A stretch of 64,000 bases of DNA, from contig JACDNV010000006.1 of assembly GCA_017656425.1 (NCBI GenBank), positions 62,001-126,000 of the forward strand, written 5' to 3'. Positions 22,127-54,435 of this stretch are shown piece after piece. Numbering within the stretch: position 1 is the first letter of the stretch; each line of letters opens with the position of its first letter. The stretch is from Candidatus Neomarinimicrobiota bacterium. GTDB taxonomy: Bacteria > Fidelibacterota > UBA2242 > B5-G15. Under the pieces are notes generated by a model, which was not told the origin of the DNA, did not search any database, and saw only the letters and a list, made by a program, of their open reading frames with translations. The translations under genes and the position numbers were made by a program.

Positions 22127-22221
22127 ATTTGACTCCGTTCCCCTGATAGCTAACAAGAAACTTAGCTAAATTAATTATCCATTTATATTAAATCAAAATT
22201 AAAAGAGCAATAAATAGATTT

Positions 22222-22281: not shown

Positions 22282-24015
22282 CTACTTCATTAATACCATC
22301 TTCTTTGTGATCTTCTGTCCAGCAAATTCAACGGTATAGAAATAAACTCCACTTGCTAAGTTCGATCCGTCAAAAGTAATATTATATGTTTTCGCAATAC
22401 CTTCTCCATTCATTAACGTTGTAACTTCCCTACCCAGCATATCAAATACTTTCACAGTAACTTTACCTGAATGTGGTAATGTAAAAGTGATATTTGTTGT
22501 TGGGTTAAATGGATTTGGATAATTCTGATTTACTTTAAATCCTTTTAATACATTATTTTCTTCCCTTACTCCAACACCCTGTGGTAATCTACCTTCATCT
22601 AATGCTGCAAGTAATTCCTCGTATTGATTATCTCTAATTTGTAACCATGAACTTTTTTGATCAGGGAACCAGTTTAAATCACCTATAGGATAACCATCGG
22701 CATCTACTATATCATCATCACTATATGACAAATCTATTGGTACAGGCCAATCTGGATAAACATAAAAATCAGAACCTACAAATACCAATCTCCAGTCTGG
22801 TAATATCACTGCCTTAGTAATGTCCATAGTATTAATAGCGAAATCTCTCAGAGTATCTACATAGGTAGTAAGTAAATTCCTTGGATCAGTGAAATTTGGT
22901 AATTTCTCATACCAGGTACCTTCTACTAGATATGGCCAGTTGTTATCATCATCAAACATTGCCTTCGTTCTTGTATTCATCTTAATTGTTTGGTCATACC
23001 ATTCATCTGTATTATTTATATTGTTATCTTTCATATATTGAGCCAAGTTTAATAACCTCGAATCCCAATAAACCAAATTCCTATCAACTAAGACCTTCCT
23101 ATCAACCTGGTCCATATCAGATGGCAAAGTATCTACATTTATAATACCAAGCGGTAATTTATCCTGATCTACTTCAGGAAAATCTTCATCAATATAAGTA
23201 TAAGGCTGAACGTTACTGTTTACAAAAATGTTATTCGTCACAACCCATCTGCTTTGAAAACCGTTAGTCTCAAAAATAATACCAGCACAGTTGATAAAAG
23301 TATTGTGATTAAACATTAACAGTTTAATAGGATAATTTCTAAATTTGTACATCATACCCTGTGCTACAACATGAGTTGAGTTTTCAACCCATATTGTGTC
23401 TGTAGCATTATCTACATTATCATATACACCACCATTTCTTCTACATTCCTGACCACTTAAGTTTACAAAATAGGAATCTCTGATGTAAACTCTCGTCCCA
23501 GCCACAGCGTTAGAAGCTATTATCACCCATCTTGTTCGCTCAGCAATACAATTCTCTAAAGTAATACGACAATTTGGCTGCGTGAACCAGAAGAAAGTCC
23601 AACCAAGAGTTCCTTCCGCTGATGCCGGTACTATACATACATTTTTAAGAGTAAGGTCTCCCCCAGGATTAATACCGCCTGAGTTACCACCTTTACCACA
23701 GATCACCGGAAACATCTTTTGTGGATCACCATTATACAATGGTTCTGTAGCTTCACCTACGATAACAGTATGCCTATCAGATTTTGTAGTTGGATTACTA
23801 CCTAATTCATACAATTCACCAGCTTTTAGCAGGTATACACGACCTTCTGGTACATTTGCGGTATCATAAGTAATTGCCTCATATAGATACTCTGGTAATA
23901 CAACTGCAGTATCCCCGCGAAATTCCTCAACATAGTCTGAAATAGGGCTTTCTTGAGCAGCTAGCATTACAACCATTGCTAACACTACTAAGGTAACTAA
24001 ACTCAATTTCTTCAT
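22282..24015 (-). CDS. Secreted right-handed beta-helix protein paired with TonB receptor, T9SS sorting domain
   Basis: A 577-residue protein: signal peptide (1-20), a beta-helix region (about 55-290) with repeated turns such as ENCIAERTRWVII, VYIRDSYFVNLS, LMFNHNTFINCAG and WVVTNNIFVNS, an aromatic-rich region (about 300-480), and a sorting module (about 495-577; NYPNPFNPTT, VFDMLGRE). No lyase or hydrolase active site is recognisable. It follows the TonB receptor by 38 bases and shares layout with the protein at 35043, which follows the second receptor. Both carry a GDLxW-type block before the sorting module. I infer a surface glycan-binding partner of the receptor, in the place SusD holds in Bacteroidota. 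RBS AAGGAGGTGTAGC precedes ATG 24015. Confidence 0.7.
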   Translation of the reverse strand: MKKLSLVTLVVLAMVVMLAAQESPISDYVEEFRGDTAVVLPEYLYEAITYDTANVPEGRVYLLKAGELYELGSNPTTKSDRHTVIVGEATEPLYNGDPQKMFPVICGKGGNSGGINPGGDLTLKNVCIVPASAEGTLGWTFFWFTQPNCRITLENCIAERTRWVIIASNAVAGTRVYIRDSYFVNLSGQECRRNGGVYDNVDNATDTIWVENSTHVVAQGMMYKFRNYPIKLLMFNHNTFINCAGIIFETNGFQSRWVVTNNIFVNSNVQPYTYIDEDFPEVDQDKLPLGIINVDTLPSDMDQVDRKVLVDRNLVYWDSRLLNLAQYMKDNNINNTDEWYDQTIKMNTRTKAMFDDDNNWPYLVEGTWYEKLPNFTDPRNLLTTYVDTLRDFAINTMDITKAVILPDWRLVFVGSDFYVYPDWPVPIDLSYSDDDIVDADGYPIGDLNWFPDQKSSWLQIRDNQYEELLAALDEGRLPQGVGVREENNVLKGFKVNQNYPNPFNPTTNITFTLPHSGKVTVKVFDMLGREVTTLMNGEGIAKTYNITFDGSNLASGVYFYTVEFAGQKITKKMVLMK

Positions 24016-24053
24016 GCTACACCTCCTTTTTTTAACGAATACATTTATTAATC

Positions 24054-27000
24054 CTAAAATTTATAGCGTAATACAAGTTCGTATAATGTAGGCGTATACA
24101 ATTCACCCACCAGAGTTCGTTCTATCTTATCACTTCCAGGCCTCTTGAATTCTCTATAATTTTTAATTGATGTCCCAGTAAGATTTACAATATTAAATTG
24201 CACACTTAGACCCTTAACCGGTAATTTTTGTTTTACTGTTAGATCCCACCTTGTAATAATTCCAGTATAAACATCATCTTCAGGTCTTGAACCAATATAG
24301 GAAACCTCATCATCCGTTAAATTAAATGATAACCTACCAGAAAAACCTTTATAATCAAACCCCAGGATTAGATTTAAAATGTGATCTGCCTGATGAAGTA
24401 GCCTATCTTTATATGTTTTTTCTTTGGTTATATATTTGTATTTCTTTACCTTAATCGGACCTACCTGTTCATAATACGCTGAATCTGTATTTTCTATCCT
24501 TAAGTATTTCATACTCGACCAGGTCCTGGTATAGTTCACATTTATAACGAGAGAATTAAATGGCTTGGGCAAATACCACAAGTTTGACTGCCATTCGAAT
24601 TCTATACCCCTAACATATCCAGGATATTTATTATTTATATATGAATTTATAAGTAATGATTTTTCTGGCAATTTACTCCAGCCCAACTTCTGCATTAATG
24701 CAGTATCAGGAAAATTAATCTCATATTTGTCAATATTTTGATAATATACTGACGTTGAGAAAAATACATTCTCCAATTTTTTATAGAAAGGAGCAATAGA
24801 AATCAATCCAATATTATGACTATAAATTGAAAGCGCGGCATCGTAATTTGTCACTTCTGTGGGCTTAAGTTTAGGATTTCCAACCCTTGTGTATCCTCCT
24901 GGTTCATATAAGACAGTAGGCACAATTGCCAAATAATCTGGTCTTGATATTGCCTCTGTATATGCAAGTCGTAGATCTGCCCACTCTGTAAGCTTATATT
25001 TTAGCTGCAAATTAGGAAACCAATTTACATCAGATCTGTCTACTTCATCTATATCTGTCGAATCATCCTGAACTAAAGCATCTCCATCGACAGGGTGGGT
25101 AACAATTAGTATATGACCATCATAATTCATCCTATACTCTTCCCATCTAATTCCTCCAAGCAATGTTAATCTAGGCCCTATTTTGAAAGTACTCATAAAG
25201 TATCCTGCGAGAAAATCTTCTGTCCCGACAAAATCATCTTGCGTTGACCACTCTTCATGTGTTCCTATACCCCATCCTTTCGGCGCAATTAAGAAAAATG
25301 GATCCATTATACCTTTGTCTACTACATATTTAATCGGATATTTACCATCAAGAAAATAATTACCTCGTTCGTAACTACTCCTCACCACCTCCATAAATCT
25401 CAAAGGATGTGTCGGGCTTAAAGGCTCACTCTCATCTCTCACGATAGTATAACCGTCTATATAATAATATATCTTACCATCTTTTTTCTCCCGAGGTATT
25501 GCATCGTAAAAGTCAGTATTGCCGGTTCTATTATAATAAGCTTCTATATCATTTTTACGATATGAATGATCATATTTCCCACCAAATTTTATATCAGCAG
25601 TTACTCCATATAATAGCTTAACTGGAATACTAAAATCTACCTTTGATGTATACAAATGTTGATTAAAATCCTCTTCTCTCGTAGTTGCCCAACCGTGTAA
25701 CTCAGCCCTATAATAAGAAGAATCATCTATTTCAATTTCATAAACATCATTAAGATCCATAGTATCACCCGCAGTCAAGTAATTAATTCCCGCTCCAAAA
25801 GGAGATCTATCTTCAAAATTAAAATTCTGGCCTGGATCAGCGTATCTCTCCACTGTATTTTTATTACTGGATGAATGAGACAAACTAAACTCCATTTTCA
25901 GATTACCGAATTTATATTCACCCATTAAAGAATTTATCATCAATTGTCTCTCATGAAAATCTCTAAATATTGAATACTGCCCCAAGTTTTCTGTAAAAGT
26001 AAAAATGTTCCTATAATTAGCAAAATCATTTCTGTTATGAGATATGGAATTTTGTAAAATAATCTTACCATTCGGTAATTCATAATCCAGAATAATACTT
26101 CCTCCTTTATTGGAAATAATATTCTCTTCATCAGTATAATCAAAACCAGTCATTCTATATATTCCTTCACCAAATGGAACTGTTGGATCATTAATACTGA
26201 AAGATGAACCTATTCTATCATTTCCCACATTAGATCTATCCATGTGCCCCTGAATAAAAACTCCTAACTTATTATTAAAAAACCTCTTACTAATACTTGC
26301 CCATGACTTATAATTATCAGTTGTTCTATCTAATCCATTATAGAAACCTTGACCAAAGAAATCAAAATGTGAACCCTCTGGTGCCTCCATTATTTTTAAA
26401 TTAACGACACCACCTATTGAATTAGCATCCATATCTGGAGTTAATACCTTAAAAACTTCTATTCCAGACAACATATTAGAAGAAATAAAACCAAGATTTA
26501 CTGATCGATCACTTAAGCTTGTAGATGGTAACTGCACCCCATTCATCAGAACCACATTCTGTTTTGCCTGAATACCTCTGATTACTACCTTATCCCCATC
26601 CTGTAAAGATATACCTGGCAATCTACTAAGGGCAGCTGCAGCACTTTCGTCAGGCAATTCTTGAATTTTCTCGGAAGAAACTACATTCTTAACGCTTAAT
26701 GCATTCAATTGCTCATTTATCGCATTTAATTGACCTTTTGCCTGTGCAGTAACTACTACTTCCTGTAGCTTTAAGCCTTTATAATCCAAAAACGCAGTAA
26801 CATTGGTTTCTTCTCCAGAGTTAACTACAACAGGAATATCTTTATCTTCATAGCCAATGAATCTTATTTGTAAAATATAATTTCCGGGAGGTACCCCATC
26901 TATCTCAAATCTACCTTCTTCATTAGAGGCAGCACCCATATATGTCCCTTTTACCACTACATTTGCAAATGGTAGCGGTTTTTTAGTCTTACTGTCATAG

Positions 27001-27101
27001 ACAAAACCTACTATTTTCCCGTTTTCCTGTGGAAAAACTATTTGAAAAAAAGTTAAAAAACAGAGTAATGAAATTGTTGCGAAGCTAATTACCTTATTCA
27101 T
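24054..27101 (-). CDS. TonB-dependent outer-membrane receptor (oligosaccharide uptake)
   Basis: A 1015-residue receptor: signal peptide (about 1-24), a carboxypeptidase-regulatory-like domain (about 28-112; GFVYDSKTKKPLPFANVVVKGT), a plug (about 125-245; LSRLPGISLQDGDKVVIRGI, then ANSIGGVVNLK) and a 22-strand barrel ending in the aromatic LRYKF. The plug text resembles the Caulobacter-type TonB receptor family more than SusC. It is first in a two-gene operon with the beta-helix protein, transcribed from the consensus promoter at 27148-27176 overlapped by an inverted repeat. RBS GAGGGGGG precedes ATG 27101. The divergent neighbour is a secreted GH10 xylanase, so xylo-oligosaccharides are the likely cargo. 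TonB/ExbBD genes are not in the window. Confidence 0.9.
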   Translation of the reverse strand: MNKVISFATISLLCFLTFFQIVFPQENGKIVGFVYDSKTKKPLPFANVVVKGTYMGAASNEEGRFEIDGVPPGNYILQIRFIGYEDKDIPVVVNSGEETNVTAFLDYKGLKLQEVVVTAQAKGQLNAINEQLNALSVKNVVSSEKIQELPDESAAAALSRLPGISLQDGDKVVIRGIQAKQNVVLMNGVQLPSTSLSDRSVNLGFISSNMLSGIEVFKVLTPDMDANSIGGVVNLKIMEAPEGSHFDFFGQGFYNGLDRTTDNYKSWASISKRFFNNKLGVFIQGHMDRSNVGNDRIGSSFSINDPTVPFGEGIYRMTGFDYTDEENIISNKGGSIILDYELPNGKIILQNSISHNRNDFANYRNIFTFTENLGQYSIFRDFHERQLMINSLMGEYKFGNLKMEFSLSHSSSNKNTVERYADPGQNFNFEDRSPFGAGINYLTAGDTMDLNDVYEIEIDDSSYYRAELHGWATTREEDFNQHLYTSKVDFSIPVKLLYGVTADIKFGGKYDHSYRKNDIEAYYNRTGNTDFYDAIPREKKDGKIYYYIDGYTIVRDESEPLSPTHPLRFMEVVRSSYERGNYFLDGKYPIKYVVDKGIMDPFFLIAPKGWGIGTHEEWSTQDDFVGTEDFLAGYFMSTFKIGPRLTLLGGIRWEEYRMNYDGHILIVTHPVDGDALVQDDSTDIDEVDRSDVNWFPNLQLKYKLTEWADLRLAYTEAISRPDYLAIVPTVLYEPGGYTRVGNPKLKPTEVTNYDAALSIYSHNIGLISIAPFYKKLENVFFSTSVYYQNIDKYEINFPDTALMQKLGWSKLPEKSLLINSYINNKYPGYVRGIEFEWQSNLWYLPKPFNSLVINVNYTRTWSSMKYLRIENTDSAYYEQVGPIKVKKYKYITKEKTYKDRLLHQADHILNLILGFDYKGFSGRLSFNLTDDEVSYIGSRPEDDVYTGIITRWDLTVKQKLPVKGLSVQFNIVNLTGTSIKNYREFKRPGSDKIERTLVGELYTPTLYELVLRYKF

Positions 27102-27127
27102 ATCCCCCCTCTTATTTTTTGTAGTTC

Positions 27128-27147
27128 AATTTCGCCAACACGAAATT
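27128..27147. promoter_or_regulatory. Perfect inverted repeat, probable repressor operator
   Basis: AATTTCG and CGAAATT arms of 7 bases flank CCAACA. The site starts directly after the -10 box of the receptor promoter, so it covers the expected transcription start. That position is typical of a repressor-binding site. It is also 139 bases before the divergent GH10 gene and could control both. No regulator gene is adjacent. Confidence 0.65.
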
Positions 27148-27176
27148 ATTATAATATAATTTATGTTAAATGTCAA
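27148..27176 (-). promoter_or_regulatory. Consensus sigma70 promoter of the first TonB receptor operon
   Basis: Read on the minus strand, TTGACA (27171-27176) and TATAAT (27148-27153) are both perfect and separated by exactly 17 bases. Transcription would start near 27141, leaving a 5' leader of about 40 bases. This is the strongest promoter seen in the window. Its sigma70 form differs from the TAnnTTTG promoters of Bacteroidota. Confidence 0.8.
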
Positions 27177-27285
27177 TAAAATAATTTATATACTAATCAT
27201 TAAAATTTAACTATTGATTTTTATAAAATTGTTAATATATTTTAACTAAAGCATTTTGAAATTAATAAATATATGGAGGGTTTAA

Positions 27286-29673
27286 ATGACTTGTTCTAAC
27301 ACAATCAAATTTTTTGCGGTCTATTTAATTCTAATTATTTCAATTGCTATTTCACAAACAGTTAAAAACGGTGGTTTTGAAAACACCTCTTTAGGTGAAA
27401 TAACGAACGAAAGTATCGAAGGTTGGTCTTTCCCTGTGGGATCAAGTGTTTCAGACCCACCCTATTTCGCTATAGTTGATGATACTGTACACAAAGGAAA
27501 CCACGCTTTAATGGTTGTGGTAAAATCTATTGGTACTAATGACTGGGACATACAGGCAGTAGCCGAAAGCATTAAAGTAGATCCAGCCAAAACTTACATC
27601 TATTCAGTCTGGGCAAAGTCAAAAAAAGGAAATGCAAAAGTAAATTTTACAGTCGGTAATTACATCTATCACGAATACGGAAGAATAGGAGGTGTTACCC
27701 TTTCAACAGAATGGGAGAATTTTACATTTGAATTTCAATTAGACGACGGCAGTACAACTATAAGAGCTCCAATTCATTTTAATTTTTCTGAAAATATCAG
27801 AGATACAATATGGATTGATGATTTCAAAATTATAGATGTTGAAAAAGAATTTGCCTCAAGAGTACCAGTGATCATTGAAGCAGAAGATGGAGAACTTGGT
27901 GAAGATTTTACAACTGGTACCGACGGAGACATTACATACATCACTGTCACAACAGATTATGCTGCTGATGTTGCAAAAAGTGCTCCAGATACCCTCAACA
28001 GAAACAAGAGAACTGTAAAATACAATGTGCTATTCCCATATGCAGGTACATATAGCTTATATGCTAAAGTAAAGGTGGGTCCAAATGGATATAATGATGA
28101 TAGCTTCTGGTATTCCAACGGATTTGGAGATAAGGACGCTTCCAATCCCGATGATTGGATAGCTGTAAATGGATTAGCTAACGCAGGTTTTACAAATGCC
28201 GAAGATGTAATCTTTGAACGTGGGGCGGCTGGAAACAATGTCTGGAAGTGGGTAAATCTATCGAATAATAAAATGGAAGGTGAGGTACCAATTAATTTTA
28301 CGGTTCAAGAAGATAGTACCACAGTTATTTTTATGATTGGTGGCCGTGAAGATGGATTATATTTCGATAAGTTTGCCTTTGGTCGCTCTGATTTATATTT
28401 CACTGTTGAAATGCTTGATAGTGCCTGGGCAGGATCTCCAGAATGGCCAAAAGAACCCGTTGAAACCTGGCCTGGACCACCATTAGCCACAGGCCATATT
28501 AAATTCCTTGGAAACGTATGGAGTAGCCCACAAAAGAAAGATTTTGAAAAGTACTGGAATCAGGTAACACCTGAAAATGCTGGAAAATGGGGTTCTGTCG
28601 AGGGAACAAGAGATGTTATGAACTGGACTATACTTGATGAAGCTTACAATTTTGCAAAAGAACATGAATTCCCATTTATGTTTCACGTCCTTATATGGGG
28701 AGCACAACAACCTTCCTGGATGAATGATAATACTTTAACTGATGATGAAAAATATGAAGAGATCACGGAATGGTTCCATGCAGTCGCTGATAGATACCCT
28801 GATATTGACTTCTTACAGGTTGTCAACGAACCTTTACATCAACCACCTCAATACAAAAGCGCTCTCGGCGGCAATGGAGATACAGGCTGGGATTGGGTAA
28901 TAAATGCATTTCAATTAGCAAGAGATATTTTCCCGGATACTGTAAAACTAATGATAAACGACTTCGGAATCATTGGAAGTACAAGCTCTACCCAACAGTA
29001 TTTAAACATAATAAACCTTCTTAAAGAAAGAGGTCTAATTGACGCTATTGGAGTACAGGGGCATGCATTTACCACTTACTATGCTTCCACATCCACTATA
29101 AAATCATGTCTCGATTTATTGGCATCCACAGGTTTACCCGTCTATGTTACTGAATTAGATATAGATGGTGTTGACGATCAGGTTCAATTAGAAGAATATC
29201 AAAGAGTATTTCCAACACTTTATCAGCACCCTGGAGTTATGGGAATAACTCTCTGGGGATGGAGACGTGGACTATGGAGAGATGAACAGGGAGCATATCT
29301 TATAAACAGTGATGGCTCCGAAAGACCAGCCATGAAATGGTTAATTGCCTATATGGATACTGTACAGGATTATGTTTCAATTGAAGAAGATTTAGTTCAA
29401 GGGAATCCACTTGAATTTAAATTATACAACAATTATCCAAATCCATTTAACCCAACAACAACTATAAGTTTCTCAGTTCCAATAAATACTCACGTAAAGC
29501 TCACTGTATTTAATATTTTAGGACAGTATGTAGAAACAATATATCAAGGTAACGTAACTCCCGGTACATATTCTATTCTTTTTGATGGTTCACAATTAGA
29601 AAGTGGAATATATTTCTATCGAATCGATGCGGATGGTTTTAGCCAGACGAAAAAGTTTATACTTCTAAAATAG
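27286..29673 (+). CDS. Secreted multidomain GH10 endo-beta-1,4-xylanase with T9SS sorting domain
   Basis: This 795-residue protein carries a signal peptide (about 1-24), a CBM4/9-like module (about 25-185; VKNGGFENTS start), a CBM6/35-like module (about 192-370; IEAEDGELG start), a GH10 barrel (about 395-700) and a sorting module (about 712-795; NYPNPFNPTT, VFNILGQY). The acid/base is Glu515 in VVNEPLH and the nucleophile Glu623 in VTELDID; the WxxVTPENAGKW segment is family typical. It should cut xylan at the cell surface. RBS GGAGGG precedes ATG 27286. The gene is monocistronic: it is divergent from the receptor operon and followed by a strong terminator. Confidence 0.95.
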   Translation: MTCSNTIKFFAVYLILIISIAISQTVKNGGFENTSLGEITNESIEGWSFPVGSSVSDPPYFAIVDDTVHKGNHALMVVVKSIGTNDWDIQAVAESIKVDPAKTYIYSVWAKSKKGNAKVNFTVGNYIYHEYGRIGGVTLSTEWENFTFEFQLDDGSTTIRAPIHFNFSENIRDTIWIDDFKIIDVEKEFASRVPVIIEAEDGELGEDFTTGTDGDITYITVTTDYAADVAKSAPDTLNRNKRTVKYNVLFPYAGTYSLYAKVKVGPNGYNDDSFWYSNGFGDKDASNPDDWIAVNGLANAGFTNAEDVIFERGAAGNNVWKWVNLSNNKMEGEVPINFTVQEDSTTVIFMIGGREDGLYFDKFAFGRSDLYFTVEMLDSAWAGSPEWPKEPVETWPGPPLATGHIKFLGNVWSSPQKKDFEKYWNQVTPENAGKWGSVEGTRDVMNWTILDEAYNFAKEHEFPFMFHVLIWGAQQPSWMNDNTLTDDEKYEEITEWFHAVADRYPDIDFLQVVNEPLHQPPQYKSALGGNGDTGWDWVINAFQLARDIFPDTVKLMINDFGIIGSTSSTQQYLNIINLLKERGLIDAIGVQGHAFTTYYASTSTIKSCLDLLASTGLPVYVTELDIDGVDDQVQLEEYQRVFPTLYQHPGVMGITLWGWRRGLWRDEQGAYLINSDGSERPAMKWLIAYMDTVQDYVSIEEDLVQGNPLEFKLYNNYPNPFNPTTTISFSVPINTHVKLTVFNILGQYVETIYQGNVTPGTYSILFDGSQLESGIYFYRIDADGFSQTKKFILLK

Positions 29674-29690
29674 AACAACACGGAGTTAAT

Positions 29691-29728
29691 AAAAAAGGGG
29701 CGGTTATTATCACTGCCCCTTTTTTATT
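29691..29728. terminator. Bidirectional rho-independent terminator between GH10 and GH127
   Basis: AAAAAAGGGGC pairs with GCCCCTTTTTT around a short loop (29691-29727). A- and T-runs on both sides let it serve both the GH10 gene (+) and the convergent GH127 gene (-). Confidence 0.88.
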
Positions 29729-29756
29729 ACATTTTAAAATCACAAAAAATCAAAAA

Positions 29757-31700
29757 TCAATTCACTATAGGAAACCATACCTTCATTTTTCCAATACCTC
29801 TATTTGACCATACATAATAGGGAATAAGAATGAGACTTTCATTATTAAATGTACTTTCAATAGCTAAAACCTTTTCCGATAGTATCTTCATACCTTTTAT
29901 ATTAAATTCAATATTATTCGGGATTGTAATATCTGAAATATTTTTATTATCAACCTCCTCTGCACAGTATACAAAGGGACCATATTCAAAAGCCACTTTA
30001 TTTCTATCTTCAATAACATTTTTATTCGCTATCACCATACGTACTTTCATTGGAAAAATCAATTCTACTTTATCCCCCTTTTTCCACCTCTTTATAATTT
30101 CAGCATAGCCTTTATTGTTGATTTTTAACTTCTTCTTTTTCTTATTTATCTTCAGAATTATTTTCACTTTTTCCGCATCTTTATAACAGTATAGGTCACC
30201 CGGAACAGGTCTCCCTTGAGTCCACCCAGGTATGCGTAATTTTAATGAGAATTTTTTACTCTTTTCTGGATTTACAAAAATTCTTATATGCCCATCCCAC
30301 GGATAATCAGTCTCTTGCTCAACTATGACTTTGGTATCACCTATAAGTATTTCTGCTTTACTTGAAATGAATAAATTTACATATATACTATTTTTATCAT
30401 TAGCATAAATGAGACCTGGTATATACGGTATAAACCTAATTAAGTTTGTCGGGCAACAAGAACAGTCAAACCATGGTTTTCGAGTGCAAGTACCCTGATT
30501 GAAAGCATATTTACCATCGGATTCCAAAGGATTTGGATAAAAGAATTTTGTACCATCAATTGATATTCCGGATATAATACCATTATATAAGGTTCTTTCT
30601 ATTATATCATAATACTTTGAATCCCCAAATAGGAGAAACATCTTGTGATTCCATAAAACATTCCCTATTGATGCGCATGTCTCACAATATGCTGTAAGAT
30701 TTGGTAATTCATAATTCTTACCAAATGCCTCACCCTCATGTCTTGAACCAATTCCACCAGTTATATACATTTTTTTGTTTACAACGTTTTCCCATAACCT
30801 GCTAACAGCATTTAAATATGCCGTATCTTCAAAAATTGCTGCAATATCTGTCATCGCAGCATACATATATACTGCTCTTACTGCATGTCCAACAGCCTCA
30901 GTTTGCCTTGTAACAGGTTTGTGGTCCTGACTATATTCTCCATAAAGCTTATGAGTCGTTGAATCCCCCCTGATATCTAGAAAAAATTTAGCAAGCTCAA
31001 GATAATTTCTATTACCAGTAACTTCATACAACCTGATAAGTCCGCTTTCAACAATCTGATGCCCGGGAGGTACACTCAATTTATCCTGCCCAAAATTTTT
31101 CACCAGCAAATCAGCATTCTTTATAGCAATATCCAAAAAATTTCTTTTACCAGTTGATAAATAGTGAGCAACGGCAGCATGAAACAAGTGCCCACTATTG
31201 TATAATTCATGACTACTTACAAGATTTTCCCATCTTTTCTTGGAGGGCTTCACCCACCACGCTGGAGGATTCTTTCTATCAATGGTAAACCATGTTGTTA
31301 TGTATCCATCAGATTCTTGACCTACCTTTATTATGTCAATTACTGAATCCAAATAGGCTTCAAGTTTAGCATCAGGTAATGTAATCAGCGAATAAGACGC
31401 ACCCTCAATAATTTTATATAAATCAGTATCATCAAAAGGCATTTTCCCCCTGTATTTACCTTTTTTTACACCACCAGCTACTAAAAAATTATCCATTCTG
31501 CCTTCTTTTTCACACTTTTCAAAAGCGTAAGGAATGGTTATTTCCTGAATTTTCTTTATCTTTGGAAACCAAAAGTTATCATTAATTTTAACATTTTTTA
31601 TATCTACCTTTGAAATGGGATATCGTAGATAATTTTTACCACTAGTTACATCGCAAAGCATCAAAAAAATATAAATTAAGATTATTATTACCCCGTTCAT
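29757..31700 (-). CDS. Beta-L-arabinofuranosidase, GH127, exported
   Basis: GH127 enzymes release beta-L-arabinofuranose using a cysteine nucleophile held at a zinc site. The protein has 647 residues with a leader (MNGVIIILIYIFLMLCDVTS). The zinc-site residues are visible as Glu340 and Cys342 in AYCETCASIG and Cys415-Cys416 in DCSCCPTN, close in number to Glu338, Cys340, Cys417 and Cys418 of the characterised Bifidobacterium HypBA1. HELYNSGH and the alpha/alpha barrel text fit the family. RBS AAGGAGGT precedes ATG 31700. Together with GH51 it would remove both anomers of arabinofuranose from imported oligosaccharides. It is monocistronic, framed by terminators. Confidence 0.92.
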   Translation of the reverse strand: MNGVIIILIYIFLMLCDVTSGKNYLRYPISKVDIKNVKINDNFWFPKIKKIQEITIPYAFEKCEKEGRMDNFLVAGGVKKGKYRGKMPFDDTDLYKIIEGASYSLITLPDAKLEAYLDSVIDIIKVGQESDGYITTWFTIDRKNPPAWWVKPSKKRWENLVSSHELYNSGHLFHAAVAHYLSTGKRNFLDIAIKNADLLVKNFGQDKLSVPPGHQIVESGLIRLYEVTGNRNYLELAKFFLDIRGDSTTHKLYGEYSQDHKPVTRQTEAVGHAVRAVYMYAAMTDIAAIFEDTAYLNAVSRLWENVVNKKMYITGGIGSRHEGEAFGKNYELPNLTAYCETCASIGNVLWNHKMFLLFGDSKYYDIIERTLYNGIISGISIDGTKFFYPNPLESDGKYAFNQGTCTRKPWFDCSCCPTNLIRFIPYIPGLIYANDKNSIYVNLFISSKAEILIGDTKVIVEQETDYPWDGHIRIFVNPEKSKKFSLKLRIPGWTQGRPVPGDLYCYKDAEKVKIILKINKKKKKLKINNKGYAEIIKRWKKGDKVELIFPMKVRMVIANKNVIEDRNKVAFEYGPFVYCAEEVDNKNISDITIPNNIEFNIKGMKILSEKVLAIESTFNNESLILIPYYVWSNRGIGKMKVWFPIVN

Positions 31701-31766
31701 TCCTTACTACCTCCTTAGCTAATTAGCCTCATAAATCATTACTATACACTTAGTTTAGGGAGAAAA

Positions 31767-31787
31767 ATTGTCTATACAGTAGACAAT
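31767..31787. promoter_or_regulatory. Inverted repeat upstream of GH127, possible operator
   Basis: ATTGTCTA and TAGACAAT arms of 8 bases are separated by TACAG, 67-87 bases before the GH127 start. The arms differ from the site at 27128, so a second regulator would be involved. No GC-rich stem or T-run makes it a terminator. Confidence 0.45.
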
Positions 31788-31789
31788 AC

Positions 31790-31826
31790 AAAAATAAAGA
31801 CAGCCTGCTGTATGTATGGCAGGCTG
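31790..31826 (-). terminator. Rho-independent terminator after the second receptor operon
   Basis: CAGCCTGC and GCAGGCTG pair perfectly around a 10-base loop. On the minus strand the hairpin is followed by TCTTTATTTTT. It lies about 40 bases past the stop of the 31864 gene. Confidence 0.85.
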
Positions 31827-31863
31827 CCTTCATTTTATAACATTTTTACCGTATATAATATTC

Positions 31864-34800
31864 CTACTTCAGTAACATTAGCTTTTTAACCTTAGTAAAT
31901 TCACCAGCTACCATTTTGTAGAAGTAAACTCCAGATGGTAATCTACCAGCATCAAAAGTAATTCTATAATAACCAGCTTTGTAGTATCCCTTTGCAAGTG
32001 TGGCTACCTGTCTTCCCATAATATCGTAGACCACTATCTTCACATCAGTATCTTTCGGTAATGTAAATTCGATATTAGTCGTCGGGTTGAATGGGTTCGG
32101 ATAGTTCTGTTTGAGTTCAAATTCCACTGGTCTATTAGCAAAATCAGGTCCTATAGCGACTTCTGGAGTATTTGTTGTATCAGCTTTCAGCCCGATAAAT
32201 TTTATAGCCGCAACTCTACTATTAGTAGTATTTAGTGCGAACAGAAAGCTATTTATCGTGTCAGTAACCACATTATTATCATATGCAGATGCTTCAAATA
32301 TATAGCTATTATCTTTCTTGGATAATTTAATTTTAACACATGCATTTCCATCGGCATCTTTACCATAATAAAGTTCGAACTCGTATTTACCTGAATCTCC
32401 TATTGCTCCTGCAGGAGATTGAACTGCATCGCTTAAAACATAATTGTCCGGACCATTCGTCGATAACCATACATTATTCACTACTGCACCAATCGAACCA
32501 CTCACACCGGAAGCAAGCCAGTATGGTAATGGATTGTCACCACTTGGGGGAATGAACAAATATCCAGTTCCAATTTCTGAACCTGTCCAGTGATAATCAA
32601 CGAGTTCGCCAGCATCTGAATTGAACAATCCCAATCTCATTGCATTGTCATTATCAAAACCACCTCCAATAAGTTCCATTTCACCATATACTTTAACTGC
32701 TCTACCAGCTTCAGGTATGATAGGTGCATCAAATTCACCCCTAATAGCTATCCAAGCTGAAGTTTGAACGATAGGATATAAAGTAAAATCTCCAACAAAT
32801 TCTCCAGGCTGTAATGTCCATTGACCATTACCATTCCTACCACCTACAAATCCAATATCTGATAAGTAATGATTAACAAAAGGAGGTAATGGTATTTTTA
32901 TTGGATCACCCTTATCTACCTTAACCTCGTAAAGTTTTACCAACTTTGTCTGTGAATCCTTATTGAAACCAAAGCATATTAGATTAAATTTTGTAGTTAT
33001 CTGTGCTGAATCATAGGCTACGCCGGCAAACCAGTATTTTTCATTTTCTTCAACAAGATACCAGCGGATTTCATTAATACCGCCAGGTAATGCTTTAACC
33101 GAAATCGCGAAATCATACATCCCGGCTATCATTTCTGCATTACGTGGTCTTTGCTCAACTTGTGATAGTGCCCATGTTCCAGCACTGTTAGTACTGTACC
33201 AACTACCATCAGGCTCTCTCCAAACAACTCCAACTTTGGCATAAGCAGGTACCCCTCTCCAGGTATTTGACATAGTTCCCGTTCCAGTTCGAGGTGTGAA
33301 TAGGTAGGTATCCCAAGTTCCTTCACTAACCCATCTTGCAGAATCAGTCAGTGCATTCTCTAACTTAGCATCCTCTTGATATGCTAACCCATATCTTATA
33401 TGGGTATATGCGCTACCACCACCTCCTCCTATGAGCTCAAGTTTACCAGTTACAATAATTGCCTTCTCCTCACTAATCTCAACAGCTTCGCCAAAACCAC
33501 CTGCTATAGTTGCCCAGTTTGATGGCGGATTCGTAAGTGTTGTGTCTCCAAATATTGCATCGCCAACCAGCGTCGTCGAATCATTAAGAATAGCCCAATT
33601 CATATCTGCATTCAATCTATCTTTACCCCACAGATCAACATAAAATGGTTCCCATGGAGCTTCAGGCACCTCTATAGGATCTCCCATGTCTACTTCAACA
33701 CCATACAATTTTACCAGCTTTGTCTGTGAATCCTTATTAAAACCGAAGCATATCTGGTTAAATTTTGTAGTTATCATCACTGAATCATAGGCTACACCAC
33801 CAAACCAATATTTATTATTTTCCTCAACAAGATACCAGCGTATTTCGTTTATACTATCAGGTAATACTCTAACAGAAATTGCAAAATCATACATTCCTGC
33901 AATCATTTCTGCATTACGAGGTGCCTGTAACTGTTGCGATAAAGCCCACGTTCCAGCGCTATTAGTACTGTACCAACTACCATCAGGCTCTCTCCAGACT
34001 ACTCCAACTTTGGCATAAGCAGGTACTCCTCTCCAGGTATTTGACATAGTTCCCATTCCAGTTCGAGGTGTGAATAGGTAACTAAACCAATTCTTGGGGC
34101 TTTCCCACTTTGCACTATCGGTATTTTGATACTTCAACACAGCGCTATCCTGATATGCAACTGCATACCTCATATGGGTATATGCACTACCACCACCTCC
34201 TCCTATGAGCTCAAGTTTACCACGAATAATCACAGCTTTATCGGTAGTTGCCTGTACTTCGTCAAAACCACCTGCTATGGTTGCCCAGCCTGATGGCGGA
34301 TTCGTAAGTGTTGTGTCTCCAAATATTACATCACCTCTTGGCATTTCAGGTACGTTAAGAAGATCCCAATTCGTATCTGCATTCAATCTATCCTTACCCC
34401 ATTTGTAAACAGGAATAGGAAAAGTCCTAAGAATAAACTCGATATCATCAGCATACCAGATTGTAGTAACTCCAGTACCTCCGATATTTCCAGTACCGGC
34501 ACAATTAATTCCAAAAGCTAAATAGATAGTATCTTCGAGTGATGCAAGGTAACCAGGTGACGGATTGGTTAACTTGAAAGCTATCTCTTCCCACTCGGTC
34601 GAAGCCTCATTTACATTACGATTATAAGACCCAACCTTTACACTTGAATTATTATAGGCTTGTGCTGTTGGTGAGTCCTGATAGGCTTCTACAATAATAT
34701 CTTTCCAACCCACATCTCCCTGTTTGAAGAAAAACTTAATTTTAATCGAATCATAATCTGCAAGTGTTTTGCCTTCTTCCAGTACCACCTTAACTACTGG

Positions 34801-35022
34801 TGCAGCATTGTAATTGTTAGGCGTGAATTTTAACGCCTTATTACCAGGCTCTCCGGGTAATGTGTCGATTACAGCAGTTTCCCCTGTATTCCAACCAATA
34901 ACATCAAGCGTATCACCTATTTCGTAATCTTCAAAATCAATTACCTGTGCCTGTAATGCTATCCCGCTTAAAAATAGGATACACATTACAAATACGGGCC
35001 AAATGTTTCTTTTTTTCTTCAT
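31864..35022 (-). CDS. Large secreted repeat protein, probable surface glycan-binding protein, T9SS sorting domain
   Basis: About 1052 residues, third gene of the second receptor operon. After a signal peptide comes a jelly-roll-like domain (about 25-200; VIDFEDYEIGDTLDVIGWN start), then three related domains of about 250 residues. The first two (each starting WGKDRLNAD-x-NW) are nearly identical over long stretches; the third (about 715-965) is divergent but keeps the GELELIGGG-type core. A sorting module ends the protein (NYPNPFNPTT, VYDIMGRQ). No catalytic motif is recognised. The start at 35022 follows GGAGGG by 5 bases; the earlier start at 35034 would include that site. Context suggests capture of polysaccharide at the surface for the receptor. 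Confidence 0.75.
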   Translation of the reverse strand: MKKKRNIWPVFVMCILFLSGIALQAQVIDFEDYEIGDTLDVIGWNTGETAVIDTLPGEPGNKALKFTPNNYNAAPVVKVVLEEGKTLADYDSIKIKFFFKQGDVGWKDIIVEAYQDSPTAQAYNNSSVKVGSYNRNVNEASTEWEEIAFKLTNPSPGYLASLEDTIYLAFGINCAGTGNIGGTGVTTIWYADDIEFILRTFPIPVYKWGKDRLNADTNWDLLNVPEMPRGDVIFGDTTLTNPPSGWATIAGGFDEVQATTDKAVIIRGKLELIGGGGGSAYTHMRYAVAYQDSAVLKYQNTDSAKWESPKNWFSYLFTPRTGMGTMSNTWRGVPAYAKVGVVWREPDGSWYSTNSAGTWALSQQLQAPRNAEMIAGMYDFAISVRVLPDSINEIRWYLVEENNKYWFGGVAYDSVMITTKFNQICFGFNKDSQTKLVKLYGVEVDMGDPIEVPEAPWEPFYVDLWGKDRLNADMNWAILNDSTTLVGDAIFGDTTLTNPPSNWATIAGGFGEAVEISEEKAIIVTGKLELIGGGGGSAYTHIRYGLAYQEDAKLENALTDSARWVSEGTWDTYLFTPRTGTGTMSNTWRGVPAYAKVGVVWREPDGSWYSTNSAGTWALSQVEQRPRNAEMIAGMYDFAISVKALPGGINEIRWYLVEENEKYWFAGVAYDSAQITTKFNLICFGFNKDSQTKLVKLYEVKVDKGDPIKIPLPPFVNHYLSDIGFVGGRNGNGQWTLQPGEFVGDFTLYPIVQTSAWIAIRGEFDAPIIPEAGRAVKVYGEMELIGGGFDNDNAMRLGLFNSDAGELVDYHWTGSEIGTGYLFIPPSGDNPLPYWLASGVSGSIGAVVNNVWLSTNGPDNYVLSDAVQSPAGAIGDSGKYEFELYYGKDADGNACVKIKLSKKDNSYIFEASAYDNNVVTDTINSFLFALNTTNSRVAAIKFIGLKADTTNTPEVAIGPDFANRPVEFELKQNYPNPFNPTTNIEFTLPKDTDVKIVVYDIMGRQVATLAKGYYKAGYYRITFDAGRLPSGVYFYKMVAGEFTKVKKLMLLK
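32890..34420 (-). repeat. Tandem intragenic duplication (two copies of about 770 bases)
   Basis: The segments at roughly 32890-33645 and 33660-34420 encode the first two domains of the repeat protein. DNA identity is high and patchy: GTACTGTACCAACTACCATC occurs at 33191 and 33965, and GATGGCGGATTCGTAAGTGT at 33521 and 34292, offsets of 774 and 771 bases. Such DNA-level identity suggests recent duplication or ongoing gene conversion. Confidence 0.85.
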
Positions 35023-35042
35023 TTTACCCTCCATACTATTAT

Positions 35043-36944
35043 TTATTTAATTAATAATAATTTTCTTGTTAGCATTATGCCATCTGTTTCTAAACGATAA
35101 ATATATACTCCACTTGGTAAGTCTTTACCATCAAATACTACTTTATAATTACCTTTCTGCTTGAATTCACTGACTATAGTTGTAACCTCTTTTCCAATCA
35201 TATTATAAACTTTTAGTTTAACAAAACCTGCCTTGGGAAGATAATATTCAATAGTTGTAACGGGATTGAATGGATTTGGATAATTCTGTTTTAATTCATA
35301 GGATTTTAACGCAATTTCATTAATATCTTTTATTGCATTACCTTGACTATCAGGATGTACTCCGGTTACCAACCATGTCCATATCTTTTCTCTTTCCTGA
35401 TCAGCCTGCTGCAACCACTGCGAATAATAATCCTCAGCCCCTTCCCTTAAATCTGGGTTCCACCAATTATACAAATCTCCTAATGGGAATCCACCCATAG
35501 CATAGGACTTAAGCAGTTCATTTGTATATGCAAGGTTTTCTGGTAAAGGCCATTCCTGATTTTTACCAGCTTCAGGTTTATAATCCCACATGTAATCAGC
35601 ATTGGTTGACCATTTTTGTTCAAGAAATAATTTTAGACTATCGAGGTCAAGTGGTGGTTCAAAAAAGCCCGGATTTAAAGTTTCTGTCAAGGTTTGAGGA
35701 TCGGAGGTAATATCTAGATTATTTGCCCTGTTTATATAGGGAAAAGCTTTCACAACTTCACCAGTTGCAGAATCCACAATTGTTGAATCACAGAAATCCT
35801 TTGTCCAGCTATCCAGCATTGGCCTTGGATAAGGAATTTCATCAAATCTCCTTTCTCTATATAAACCTTGAACATAAGGACAGCCTACATCCATTATTCT
35901 ACTACTCGGCTTCCACTCAGCGTCTTTAGTCCAGCCTCCTCTCATCCAATCTACTAACCAGCTGTCAACATAATAAGCGTTATGTGCTATTAGAATATGT
36001 CTATCCTTGTCACTAAAAGGAACTTTAAAATCAATTGAGTCAGCAGGTGTAATTGACATTATAGCACCTGAAGGATCCTCTCCTTGAGCTGGAATAAAAC
36101 CCAGCATATAAGCATTTACAAATAATGAATTTGTAACATTTGCCCAGTAATATACACCACCTTCAAGGGAAAACATAACAACATTATAAAATGTACAGTG
36201 ATTAAAATATACTGTATCTGCATAGTTATTCATCTCCTGCATATAAACATATCCCATATTGGCAAAAGTACAATTTTCAAAGGATACATAGTCTGTATGA
36301 TAGTCCGGCACGTCATAAGGAAACGATACCGCGCGCCCATAATACATATAATGCTTATCTACACAATTACGAAAATAACAATTTTTAAGTTCAAGATGTA
36401 AATGTACCGCTCGAACACAGATACTTCCAGAAGCTGTTACTGCAGGACATGGCATCCACTCAAAAACACATCCTTCGAAATAACCATACTGTTGTGTTGT
36501 ATCCGTTGCATCCTGATCGAAAACTATAGGTGTTCCAGTTTGAACTCCATCTATATCTGCATACCTTACCCATATATTCTTCATAATGAGATGACCGAAT
36601 ACTCTTATATGAAATTCTTTAGTAACAGCACCACTTGCAGTCCATAAAATTTGAGGTGGTGCAGTTTCCTGTGTATTACCAGGAGGTGGAGCAACTAACT
36701 CTAAGGTCTCTCCTTCGGGAACTTCTATAGTAGCTGTCAAGACATATTGTTCATAGGGTTTTAATCTAAAGACTGTATTGGATAATGTTCCATTATTTAT
36801 AGCTTCCTGTACTGCTTCATTCAATGTTCCTTCTTGCCCACCTGATTCCCAGTATCCAGGTACATCTACAGTATCTTTTTGTTGCCCAAATAATAATGGA
36901 AATGTAACAACAAAAATAATTAAACTTAAGATAATTTTTTTCAT
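35043..36944 (-). CDS. Secreted right-handed beta-helix protein paired with second TonB receptor, T9SS sorting domain
   Basis: About 633 residues and a diverged paralogue of the 22282 protein. It has a signal peptide (MKKIILSLIIFVVTFPLLFG), a beta-helix region (about 50-310) with turns such as FHIRVFGHLIMKNIWVRY, LELKNCYFRNC, VSFENCTFANMG, VYFNHCTFYNV and ANVTNSLFVNAY, a Trp/Tyr-rich region with PLGDLYNWWNPDL (about 505-520), and a sorting module (about 550-633; NYPNPFNPVT, VYNMIGKE). No catalytic residues of known beta-helix lyases are visible. ATG 36944 is used because GGAGGAAAGG acts as its RBS. It follows the receptor stop by 19 bases and precedes the repeat protein by 20. A glycan-binding role is inferred. 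Confidence 0.7.
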   Translation of the reverse strand: MKKIILSLIIFVVTFPLLFGQQKDTVDVPGYWESGGQEGTLNEAVQEAINNGTLSNTVFRLKPYEQYVLTATIEVPEGETLELVAPPPGNTQETAPPQILWTASGAVTKEFHIRVFGHLIMKNIWVRYADIDGVQTGTPIVFDQDATDTTQQYGYFEGCVFEWMPCPAVTASGSICVRAVHLHLELKNCYFRNCVDKHYMYYGRAVSFPYDVPDYHTDYVSFENCTFANMGYVYMQEMNNYADTVYFNHCTFYNVVMFSLEGGVYYWANVTNSLFVNAYMLGFIPAQGEDPSGAIMSITPADSIDFKVPFSDKDRHILIAHNAYYVDSWLVDWMRGGWTKDAEWKPSSRIMDVGCPYVQGLYRERRFDEIPYPRPMLDSWTKDFCDSTIVDSATGEVVKAFPYINRANNLDITSDPQTLTETLNPGFFEPPLDLDSLKLFLEQKWSTNADYMWDYKPEAGKNQEWPLPENLAYTNELLKSYAMGGFPLGDLYNWWNPDLREGAEDYYSQWLQQADQEREKIWTWLVTGVHPDSQGNAIKDINEIALKSYELKQNYPNPFNPVTTIEYYLPKAGFVKLKVYNMIGKEVTTIVSEFKQKGNYKVVFDGKDLPSGVYIYRLETDGIMLTRKLLLIK

Positions 36945-36963
36945 CCTTTCCTCCACTTATTAT

Positions 36964-39900
36964 TTAAAATCTAAACCTTATACCTGCATTCGCGACCATA
37001 CCATAGTATTTCATATTTGTAAATCCATCAATGGTTATCTGAGCAGATTCATTTATTTCATTATTGAGATTTGTTACATCGAGATATATTTCAGATTTCC
37101 ATACCGGTAATTTCTGCCTTACAGATAGATCAATTTTAAAATAATCCCTTGTATATCCATCCTGTTCTGGGTACGAACCAACATAACTTGCCATATCGCC
37201 CTGATAATTAAATGACAATCTAATAGAAAATCCTTTATGATCATAACCAACGTAAGCATTCAGAATATCATCAGGTTGATATATAAGCCTTCCTGTACGA
37301 GTACTATCAACAACGAATGTCTCCGTTTGTCGTGGACCAACAATCACAGTTTTATCTTCTCTTAATGGATATTTAGTCTCTGATTTTATTTTTGCATAAT
37401 TTATACCAAACACCACACCTTTCATTAATCCAGGCATAAACCATAACCTTGTTTGGAAATCAAATTCGATTCCCTTAACATATGCTGGCCAGATACCATT
37501 AATATATGTAGACACTGTAGCTTTTCGTTCAGGTTTGTACACACTTACTGTACCATCTTTATTCACAATAACGATCTGAAAATCGTCTATTGTTTTGATT
37601 GTTTCATACTTTTTTACATCATATAATCTATAGTTCGTATGATATATAAAATCTTTTATCTTTTTATAAAAAGCGCCAATCGTTAGAAGCCCCAGCCTGT
37701 TTCCGTGAAATGCTATTGCAAAATCATGATTAAAAGATTGGCCCGGTTTTAAATCAGGATTACCAGCCCATACATAGTTTCTTGGATTATTAAAACTTAT
37801 CTTGGGCGACATCTGATGGTATGCAGGACGTGCCAGACTTTTAGTATATGCATATCTAATATCCATCCAGTCAAACGGAGAAATCTTTATAGAAACCGCT
37901 GGCAGTAAGTACTCATTTGGATTTCTTGTTTCAACTGTATCTACCGCCTGGTTCTCTGGATTTCGCATGTCAAACATATTATACACCGTATAATTATTTA
38001 TTGTCTTTTCATATCGAGCACCGCCAATAAATTTAATTTTCCATAAATTTATCTCAGTCATCAGATACCCGGCATAATATTCCTCACTAAAAATGTAATC
38101 ATTAGCTGATTGCTGGAATAGCCCATTATACCAGCCTCCTGTCTCATCAGGACCGCCAGTGGCTTTACCAGCCCATCTTGGATCACTATTTAAATATTCT
38201 GCTATTTTAAGAAGAAGGTCTGAATCGGGCACCCAGTGCATTCTCCCAAATCTATCATTTAAGAACGGTTCCATCAATTCTGCATCACCCATAAAATTTG
38301 TCCCTGGATACCTTGCAACCTGAGGATCTACAAAAAGATTAAATCTTGCAGCAACCGTATCAAGCATACGCTGTTGATAATTCCCAGAATATTGCATACC
38401 AGCATAGGGTGCTTCCTGATCATTTATAATCTCTTTAAAGAAATATTCACCTCCGAATTTTACATAACCAGAAATGAAACTACCTATTTTATATGGTACT
38501 TTCAAAAATGATTTAACAGATTTCTTAGATTCTTTATATAATGTAGACCATAATTGTATGGTATTTAAATATATCGAATCGGGTCCCGGATAAATCCAGT
38601 TGACCTTTAATGACTCTGGTTTAGTATTTTCAGGTACTTTACCGACACCCTTATACGCAACACCTGATCTGAAAGAAACATACGGAGATTCAGGTAAATT
38701 ATTCTTTGACATTGTATTTGCTAACTTCAAATTAAAAATTACACCATTAAAGTCATTATTAAATTCAAGTGAGTTTAATAATATATCGATATTATTTGAT
38801 CCTTCCCTCATATTGAATCCAATTAACCTATCATTATAATTCAGTACAGTCCTGTAATCCTCAAAGTCAGAATTACGGCGAGCATAAAGGTTTAACATTT
38901 TTATGTATCCATATGGCAATCTGTAATCCAATATTAAGTTTGCTCCATAACGTTCCCTTGTTTCTACATGCCTATTCAAAGTTACATTAGTAACCCTTAC
39001 AGGCCGATAACCGGTTAATGTATCAATTTCTACACTTGTGGTTATATAACCAGCATTCATAATATCAGCATCTCTATCGTATTTTTCCATATTCCCGAGT
39101 AAATAAAAACCCAATCTTTCATTAAAAATTCTATTGCTTACAGAGACAACAAACCTATAGTTACCGTAATTATTTGTCATATAGGTATATCCAGACTGAC
39201 CTAATATATCATACCTGAATCCTGAGGGTGCTTCCCTGAGTTGCATCTCAACTGTACCGCCAACAGTATTAGCATTCATATCAGGTGTTATAGACTTATA
39301 AACCGATATAGATTTAATCATATAAGGAGAAATCATGCTCAAATCTACACTTCTATCAGTATTAACGTGACCAGCTCCACCTGCTATTGCTGTTACTCCC
39401 ATTTGGGTACTTCCCGTAGATGTTAATCTAACGCCTTCAACTGAAACCGAATTATACTGGGGCGCTATACCTCTGATGACCACCTTATTTGCTTCTCCTG
39501 AGCTTTCGAGTGTGGATACGCCGGGTAACCTACTCAGGGCCTGAGCAGCATTAAAATCTGGCAATTCCTGAAGCCTGGCTTCTGAAACAACATTTGCTAT
39601 TTTATCTGATGCCAACTGCTGACTTATAGCTTGTACCTGTCCCAAAGCCTGTGCGGTTACTACCACTTCTTTACCCCTTACTGTAATAGGACTAAGACCA
39701 AAATCTTGTGTTACTGATCCTGTTGTAGGAACTTTAACTTTGATTGTACGTGTTTCATATCCTATATATGAAACTACAACTTCATATTCTCCTTCCGGAA
39801 CATTTTGTATGTAAAAATTTCCATCTAAATCTGAAGCAGCTCCAAAGTTAGTACCTTTCAAATAAATATTAGCAGCTGGCAGGGGTTTTTCACTGTTTTT

Positions 39901-40005
39901 ATCATATACTTTACCCTTTAAAACACCAGCATTAATACTATTAAATGTAAATAATATTAAAAATGAAAAGATTAATACTCTAATCCTCTTAATATTAGAG
40001 TTCAT
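36964..40005 (-). CDS. TonB-dependent outer-membrane receptor, second copy
   Basis: A 1013-residue receptor with signal peptide, carboxypeptidase-regulatory-like domain (about 28-110; GKVYDKNSEKPLPAANIYLKGT), plug (about 125-255; LSRLPGVSTLESSGEANKVV, then SITPDMNANTVGGTVEMQ) and barrel ending in IRFRF. It has the same architecture as the 24054 receptor but is clearly diverged, so the two probably recognise different oligosaccharides. It heads a three-gene operon (receptor, beta-helix protein, repeat protein) that ends at the terminator at 31790-31826. RBS AAAGGGAG precedes ATG 40005. The glucuronoxylan gene block starts immediately upstream, so decorated xylo-oligosaccharides are plausible cargo. 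Confidence 0.9.
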   Translation of the reverse strand: MNSNIKRIRVLIFSFLILFTFNSINAGVLKGKVYDKNSEKPLPAANIYLKGTNFGAASDLDGNFYIQNVPEGEYEVVVSYIGYETRTIKVKVPTTGSVTQDFGLSPITVRGKEVVVTAQALGQVQAISQQLASDKIANVVSEARLQELPDFNAAQALSRLPGVSTLESSGEANKVVIRGIAPQYNSVSVEGVRLTSTGSTQMGVTAIAGGAGHVNTDRSVDLSMISPYMIKSISVYKSITPDMNANTVGGTVEMQLREAPSGFRYDILGQSGYTYMTNNYGNYRFVVSVSNRIFNERLGFYLLGNMEKYDRDADIMNAGYITTSVEIDTLTGYRPVRVTNVTLNRHVETRERYGANLILDYRLPYGYIKMLNLYARRNSDFEDYRTVLNYNDRLIGFNMREGSNNIDILLNSLEFNNDFNGVIFNLKLANTMSKNNLPESPYVSFRSGVAYKGVGKVPENTKPESLKVNWIYPGPDSIYLNTIQLWSTLYKESKKSVKSFLKVPYKIGSFISGYVKFGGEYFFKEIINDQEAPYAGMQYSGNYQQRMLDTVAARFNLFVDPQVARYPGTNFMGDAELMEPFLNDRFGRMHWVPDSDLLLKIAEYLNSDPRWAGKATGGPDETGGWYNGLFQQSANDYIFSEEYYAGYLMTEINLWKIKFIGGARYEKTINNYTVYNMFDMRNPENQAVDTVETRNPNEYLLPAVSIKISPFDWMDIRYAYTKSLARPAYHQMSPKISFNNPRNYVWAGNPDLKPGQSFNHDFAIAFHGNRLGLLTIGAFYKKIKDFIYHTNYRLYDVKKYETIKTIDDFQIVIVNKDGTVSVYKPERKATVSTYINGIWPAYVKGIEFDFQTRLWFMPGLMKGVVFGINYAKIKSETKYPLREDKTVIVGPRQTETFVVDSTRTGRLIYQPDDILNAYVGYDHKGFSIRLSFNYQGDMASYVGSYPEQDGYTRDYFKIDLSVRQKLPVWKSEIYLDVTNLNNEINESAQITIDGFTNMKYYGMVANAGIRFRF

Positions 40006-41218: not shown

Positions 41219-41232
41219 ATCTATACCCCCTT

Positions 41233-43347: not shown

Positions 43348-43356
43348 GTATATTGC

Positions 43357-45891: not shown

Positions 45892-45912
45892 AACAAACCC
45901 CTTTGTATTTTT

Positions 45913-47733: not shown

Positions 47734-47748
47734 GATTTTCACCTCCTT

Positions 47749-48978: not shown

Positions 48979-49036
48979 TTTTCCCCCCTATCGTTAAACA
49001 AAATTTGTGCACTTTGGATTTTTTCTCATTTTCTAG

Positions 49037-50158: not shown

Positions 50159-50187
50159 TTACTCCTTTCAGCTACTTTAATACAAAT

Positions 50188-51303: not shown

Positions 51304-51319
51304 TACAAATCCCTTTCTT

Positions 51320-52678: not shown

Positions 52679-52689
52679 TTATTACCTCA

Positions 52690-54276: not shown

Positions 54277-54435
54277 TAAATCTCCAGTTCTAGTAAATAT
54301 CAAAATCTAAATTTACACAATCAATAAACAAGTTATATAATTTATAATCATTATATTTTTTATCAATGAAAAAGTATCCAGCACATAAAATTTTTAATTT
54401 CTATTTCAAGTATATTTTACCTTAGTATACTTTCA

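Follow-up and report, generated by a model that had tools for sequence, protein, structure and literature searches.

How the organism imports polysaccharide through TonB-dependent receptors that have no SusD beside them is the question raised by this locus. In the textbook scheme, polysaccharides are taken up through the SusCD system, and loci of this type are usually recognised by their SusD. In the window, that is, the whole 64-kb stretch of DNA analysed here from a Candidatus Neomarinimicrobiota genome (2.80 Mb, 50 contigs, 99.7% complete), two TonB-dependent receptors are each followed by a secreted beta-helix protein (Table 1), and SusD models have zero matches among the window proteins scanned. 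Each pair is probably a dedicated glycan-import module in which a T9SS-exported, glycan-binding partner serves its receptor without SusD.

Table 1. Features of the two receptor/beta-helix pairs and their surroundings, in window positions.
Feature	Position	Strand	Remarks
TonB-dependent receptor A	24054..27101	-	1015 aa; TIGR01782 339 bits (339.3)
Beta-helix partner A	22282..24015	-	577 aa; start 38 bases past receptor A
Right-handed beta-helix, partner A	23206..23919	-	about residues 33-270; predicted
Conserved C-terminal block, partner A	22663..22749	-	W423-P451 (WPVP...Y...GYPIGDLNWFP)
T9SS type A sorting domain, partner A	22294..22521	-	residues 499-574; TIGR04183 50.9 bits, cut-off 23
PPIC-type peptidyl-prolyl isomerase protein	20366..22156	-	directly downstream of partner A
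GH10 + CBM4_9 T9SS protein	27286..29673	+	beside pair A; GH10 + CBM4_9 recur in clade-A loci
TonB-dependent receptor B	36964..40005	-	1013 aa; TIGR01782 320 bits (319.6)
Beta-helix partner B	35043..36956	-	637 aa from GTG; start 7 bases past receptor B
Right-handed beta-helix, partner B	36114..36875	-	about residues 28-281; predicted
Conserved C-terminal block, partner B	35457..35552	-	W469-N500 (WPLP...Y...GGFPLGDLYNWWN)
T9SS type A sorting domain, partner B	35058..35282	-	residues 559-633; above cut-off
1056-aa T9SS protein	31864..35034	-	directly after partner B; internal repeats (by eye)
Xylan-degradation genes upstream of receptor B	41233..54303	-	GH67, GH116, GH3, PfkB, two GH10, MFS_2 sugar symporter, GH30

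Both receptors carry an N-terminal CarbopepD_reg_2 domain followed by plug and beta-barrel. Together with receptor C, encoded elsewhere in the genome, they exceed the curated cut-off of TIGR01782 (TonB-Xanth-Caul; 310 bits) and belong to the same family as the Xanthomonas/Caulobacter-type receptors. Neither reaches the score of a SusCD-type receptor (TIGR04056 above 368 bits): receptor B scores 78.7 bits, through its N-terminal part only, and receptor A is unlisted. A preliminary description of this DNA had reported two receptor-to-beta-helix pairs, and both are present, with gaps of 38 bases in pair A and 7 in pair B, or 7-19 by the start chosen for partner B (the alternative is an ATG at 36944). 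It had also taken the partners for diverged paralogues of one layout, which agrees with their 24% identity and with the apparent Sec signal peptide (judged by eye), beta-helix, WPxPxxLxY...GxPxGDLxxW block and sorting domain found in both. Its "sorting module" is indeed there, corrected to a standard T9SS type A domain that occurs at about 80 places in the genome. SprA (T9SS) is encoded in the genome, and a type A sorting domain combined with a T9SS marks the partners as T9SS cargo.

Pairing extends to every full-length TIGR01782-like receptor of the source genome, a partner adjoining all four. The two receptors outside the window, C (325 bits, above the TIGR01782 cut-off) and D (268 bits, below it), are each followed about 20 bases on by a homologous T9SS beta-helix protein (L034, L035). 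The adjacency expected by chance is about 0.2% (four receptors among roughly 2,400 genes, the gene number being estimated). A partner profile built without the T9SS tail, in a search in which the receptor played no part, finds the family in 32 of 245 Neomarinimicrobiota genomes and also in Calditrichota and Bacteroidetes MAGs, with the highest copy number, about 16 members, in genome G252. Across at least three phyla, a receptor adjoins the partner in 75 of the 79 loci with informative flanks, one duplicate locus having been removed by hand. The partner is directly downstream of the receptor in 66 of these, the receptor is downstream in 8, and one gene lies between the two in 1. Conserved adjacency in related genomes had been named beforehand as the test on which the idea of a receptor partner could fail, and the idea survived it.

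Departures from the common arrangement are few. Most of the eight receptor-downstream loci fall in family f24, usually with a gap of about 0.5 kb. The reversed order of beta-helix, gap of about 0.5 kb and receptor is seen in L121, L193, L194 and similar loci, and the gap of L121 holds an ORF of about 160 aa. Four partner members (L159, L163, L178, L101) have no adjoining receptor; two of these four, of 926 and 1324 aa, belong to G252, the most copy-rich genome. A T9SS tail is present on 77 of 82 members, and the other five end at contig ends. In the 850-900-aa partners of clade C (L034:10266-12824; L069, L070, L071, L115), about 280 extra residues precede the tail and are possibly a binding module. 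On the receptor side, pairing marks a subgroup of TIGR01782 receptors, because the two best-scoring TIGR01782 receptors among the relatives (G013:C68 and G002:C29) have no partner in the stretch read. Two further candidates for partnerless receptors (G016:C193 and G013:C39) were rejected on finding a partner in both, and the flank of the G016:C98 receptor ends at a contig end.

The clades of pairs track substrate: clade B goes with xylan, clade C with mannan and clade A with a GH9/GH10/rotamase cassette, as judged from raw neighbour counts among the 25 commonest families, with no matched background. Clade B adjoins GH115 (four times), GH3 (three), MFS_2 (five), GH8 (two), GH10 and GH43; clade C adjoins GH5 (five), GlcNAc-2-epimerase-type genes (three), GH26 and an alpha-galactosidase; and clade A adjoins GH9, GH10 and rotamase genes (four each), in a repeated rotamase-GH9-GH10/CBM4_9 cassette that is also present in the window. 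Locus D contains GH16, GH5 and an alpha-1,3-glucanase-like protein, and the remaining clades adjoin GH94, GH2, GH53 and GH28 genes. The clade B tally matches the GH67/GH10/GH3/GH30/MFS_2 set of the window, and the predicted substrate of pair B is therefore glucuronoxylan. For pair A, the predicted substrate is a hemicellulose degraded by GH9/GH10/GH12.

Several neighbours may add to these loci. The PPIC-type isomerase beside pair A may assist folding of the receptor or of the beta-helix protein in the periplasm; four rotamase genes occur across the four other clade-A loci examined (L066, L067, L114, L117). The 1056-aa T9SS protein after partner B, whose matches to BgaA-like CBM and DUF5125 are weak and below Pfam cut-offs, is a candidate additional surface binder. 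On the margin of the xylan locus (57120-59450), one protein combines a Peripla_BP_4 sugar-binding-protein-like domain with a chemotaxis signalling domain and might act in chemotaxis as a direct sensor of sugar. A uroporphyrinogen-decarboxylase/MtaA-like methyltransferase gene (40187-41236) lies between receptor B and GH67, and a GH127-type protein (29757-31700) scores 492 bits against the NCBIfam aceric acid hydrolase model, about half of its 950-bit cut-off.

The statement of the preliminary description that no SusD is present holds for the window proteins scanned and fails for the genome, which encodes a single true SusD, though not on this contig. This sole SusD-type protein (G000:C19:29003-30310) is on contig C19, far from the pairs. 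SusD-like_3 has no match in 20 of 28 genomes holding the partner family, and in the genome with 16 partner copies it matches below the cut-off only. Where a full SusD is found, it is on a different contig from the pairs or, in G216, about 12 kb off. Glycan import without SusD at the partner loci is well supported.

Receptor and partner also diverge together. Their tree distances correlate at r=0.88 over 53 pairs with long receptor sequences, whereas 2000 shuffles of partners within genomes average 0.13 and never exceed 0.40. In 37 of the 53 cases the same pair is the nearest relative from another genome, a count that reaches at most 21 in the shuffles. Because linkage alone can yield co-divergence, such congruence shows inheritance as a unit and not contact. 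With adjacency in nearly all informative loci and congruent trees, the "dedicated receptor partner" first suggested from the window alone is well supported, as is a receptor/beta-helix pair that is both dedicated and diversified by substrate.

The relatives of the partner bear on what it might do at the cell surface. None of 28 profile members reaches the Pfam cut-off for DUF5123 (partner B scores 12.3 bits against a gathering score of 35.1), and the best E-values among them are 0.012 for DUF5123 and 2.5e-6 for DUF4957. In hhalign, the partner profile matches 15 Bacteroidota DUF5123 proteins at 97.9% (E 3e-13); the controls, two further beta-helix proteins encoded in the source genome, give 19% and 4%, by which a generic beta-helix resemblance was rejected as the source of the match. 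A G440 protein is intermediate, passing the DUF5123 cut-off, carrying a T9SS tail and matching the partner profile at 98.2%. Each of the 15 Bacteroidota genes follows a SusC-sized and a SusD-sized gene, and all five of the SusD-sized neighbours tested are SusD by Pfam. Their products have GDPRW at the end and an invariant, lipobox-like Cys near the N-terminus (C30 in A5). One review describes BT4112 as the homogalacturonan-binding protein of the cell surface, adjoining BT4113/BT4114 (PMC8002723); a second source places a DUF5123 protein within BT4109-14 (PMC10434189). BT4112 is apparently that DUF5123 protein, an identity that combines the two sources and is stated in neither alone.

Judged by these profile comparisons, the partner is a distant, T9SS-exported relative of the DUF4957/DUF5123 surface glycan-binding proteins, and so not wholly new. 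Like the SusC-SusD-SGBP loci with such proteins (e.g. BT4112-BT4114), the pairs set a TonB receptor beside a surface beta-helix protein, with a C-terminal GD[LP]xW motif and polysaccharide-degrading neighbours. Unlike them, the pairs have no SusD, their receptor is of the TIGR01782 type and not a full SusC, and the partner is directly beside the receptor. The partner carries a T9SS tail where the Bacteroidota DUF5123 proteins have a lipobox Cys, its similarity to them is at the profile level only, and neither a DUF5123-type lipoprotein signal nor a place after SusC-SusD was found for it. Since the defining features of both were tested and are not found, the pairs are neither a SusCD system nor DUF5123 members, and are taken here as a variant of the TonB receptor with a surface glycan binder.

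As a dedicated import module, the pair would work as follows. The partner would reach the periplasm by Sec, pass the outer membrane by T9SS, be held at the cell surface and bind polysaccharide or its large fragments, filling the place of both SusD and the DUF4957/DUF5123 surface glycan-binding protein of Bacteroidota. From its relatives and gene context, we strongly infer that it binds glycan. It would then hand its ligand to its own TonB receptor through a putative contact, in which the conserved GDLxW block possibly serves for docking, and periplasmic enzymes and MFS/SSF symporters would complete uptake. The partner may even replace SusD outright, in complex with the TIGR01782-type receptor and as a glycan-capturing lid, in a SusD-free machine that would have spread among Neomarinimicrobiota, Calditrichota and deep Bacteroidota relatives and adapted to different substrates; this proposal is tentative, its chance a little short of even. 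Capture of oligosaccharide chains along the helix, as the preliminary description suggested, is likewise conjectural. Somewhat below an even chance is also given to a partner that binds glycan at the surface in the manner of an SGBP and never touches the receptor, adjacency serving only to keep co-regulation and matched specificity. The DUF5123 relatives do hold the SGBP position downstream of SusD, and T9SS cargo may anchor away from the receptor, but the near-obligate one-to-one adjacency and strong tree congruence are less expected of such a protein, and no other candidate lid protein is present.

Structure prediction bears on whether the partner is an enzyme. AlphaFold models of partners A and B, of moderate confidence (13-sequence alignments; mean pLDDT 69 and 65), are right-handed beta-helices in which the GDLxW block is modelled at low confidence. 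Foldseek alone gives weak scores. The closest solved fold is the C-terminal domain of two-domain PL6 alginate lyases (AlyGC, BcAlyPL6, Patl3640), with Z 23-27 over 250-288 residues; against this domain of 7dmk, partner A gives Z 24.5 over 280 residues and partner B Z 26.9 over 288, both with an rmsd of 3.0. The best match is confined to this domain, whereas the catalytic domain of AlyGC is the N-terminal one, according to a review (PMC8286568). In contrast to the PL6 lyases, to which it is 14-21% identical, the partner is a free-standing secreted protein with no catalytic domain, and no sequence relation to solved proteins was found. A fold in common shows no function.

That the partner is a secreted lyase or hydrolase, merely sharing an operon with the receptor, might be expected from structural matches that are mostly polysaccharide lyases and hydrolases and from loci full of enzymes, yet its conserved residues are of another kind. 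The near-invariant positions (partner A numbering, up to 86 aligned segments) are L63, Y69, T214, H237, N261, Y431, G445 and W449, so that the invariant residues are Asn/Thr/His rung positions and the G/Y/W of the C-terminal block (G445 in 78/78, Y431 in 75/78, W449 in 70/78). The best-conserved charged positions are D206 (72/85), D51 (70/81) and R306 (62/83). Across the family, neither a catalytic Lys/Arg dyad nor a pair of acidic residues is conserved; the top Lys is K124 (53/84) and the top Arg is R306. This pattern appears to fit a binder better than an enzyme. The family is also found equally at loci for mannan, xylan and beta-glucan, and neutral mannan is no substrate for beta-elimination. 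Lyase activity, which the preliminary description had noted would make the partner an ordinary enzyme, is disfavoured by the missing dyad and the mannan loci; with catalytic residues unconserved, an enzyme was rejected as the main reading and is unlikely. The partner is very unlikely to be a surface adhesin, or a structural cover protein, with no part in import: beta-helix adhesins such as PfbA and SRRP do occur among the fold matches, but gene context tracks substrate and the partner is congruent with the receptor.

No description of the receptor/beta-helix pair was found in the literature covered, with most subscription papers and all preprints outside that coverage, and searches on SusD-less systems, DUF5123 and Marinimicrobia glycan import returned indirect matches only. 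According to one study, Guaymas Basin Marinisomatota MAGs are without most of the common transporters for sugars, yet encode many TonB receptors (PMC8630151). Lineages without SusD look poor in sugar transport; the SusD-less pairing points to a different uptake route for plant polysaccharides. If the pair is such an import module, then, with as many as about 16 copies in a genome, it would serve as a marker for SusD-less loci, its clades would predict substrates, and the origin of SusD-type lids would become testable.
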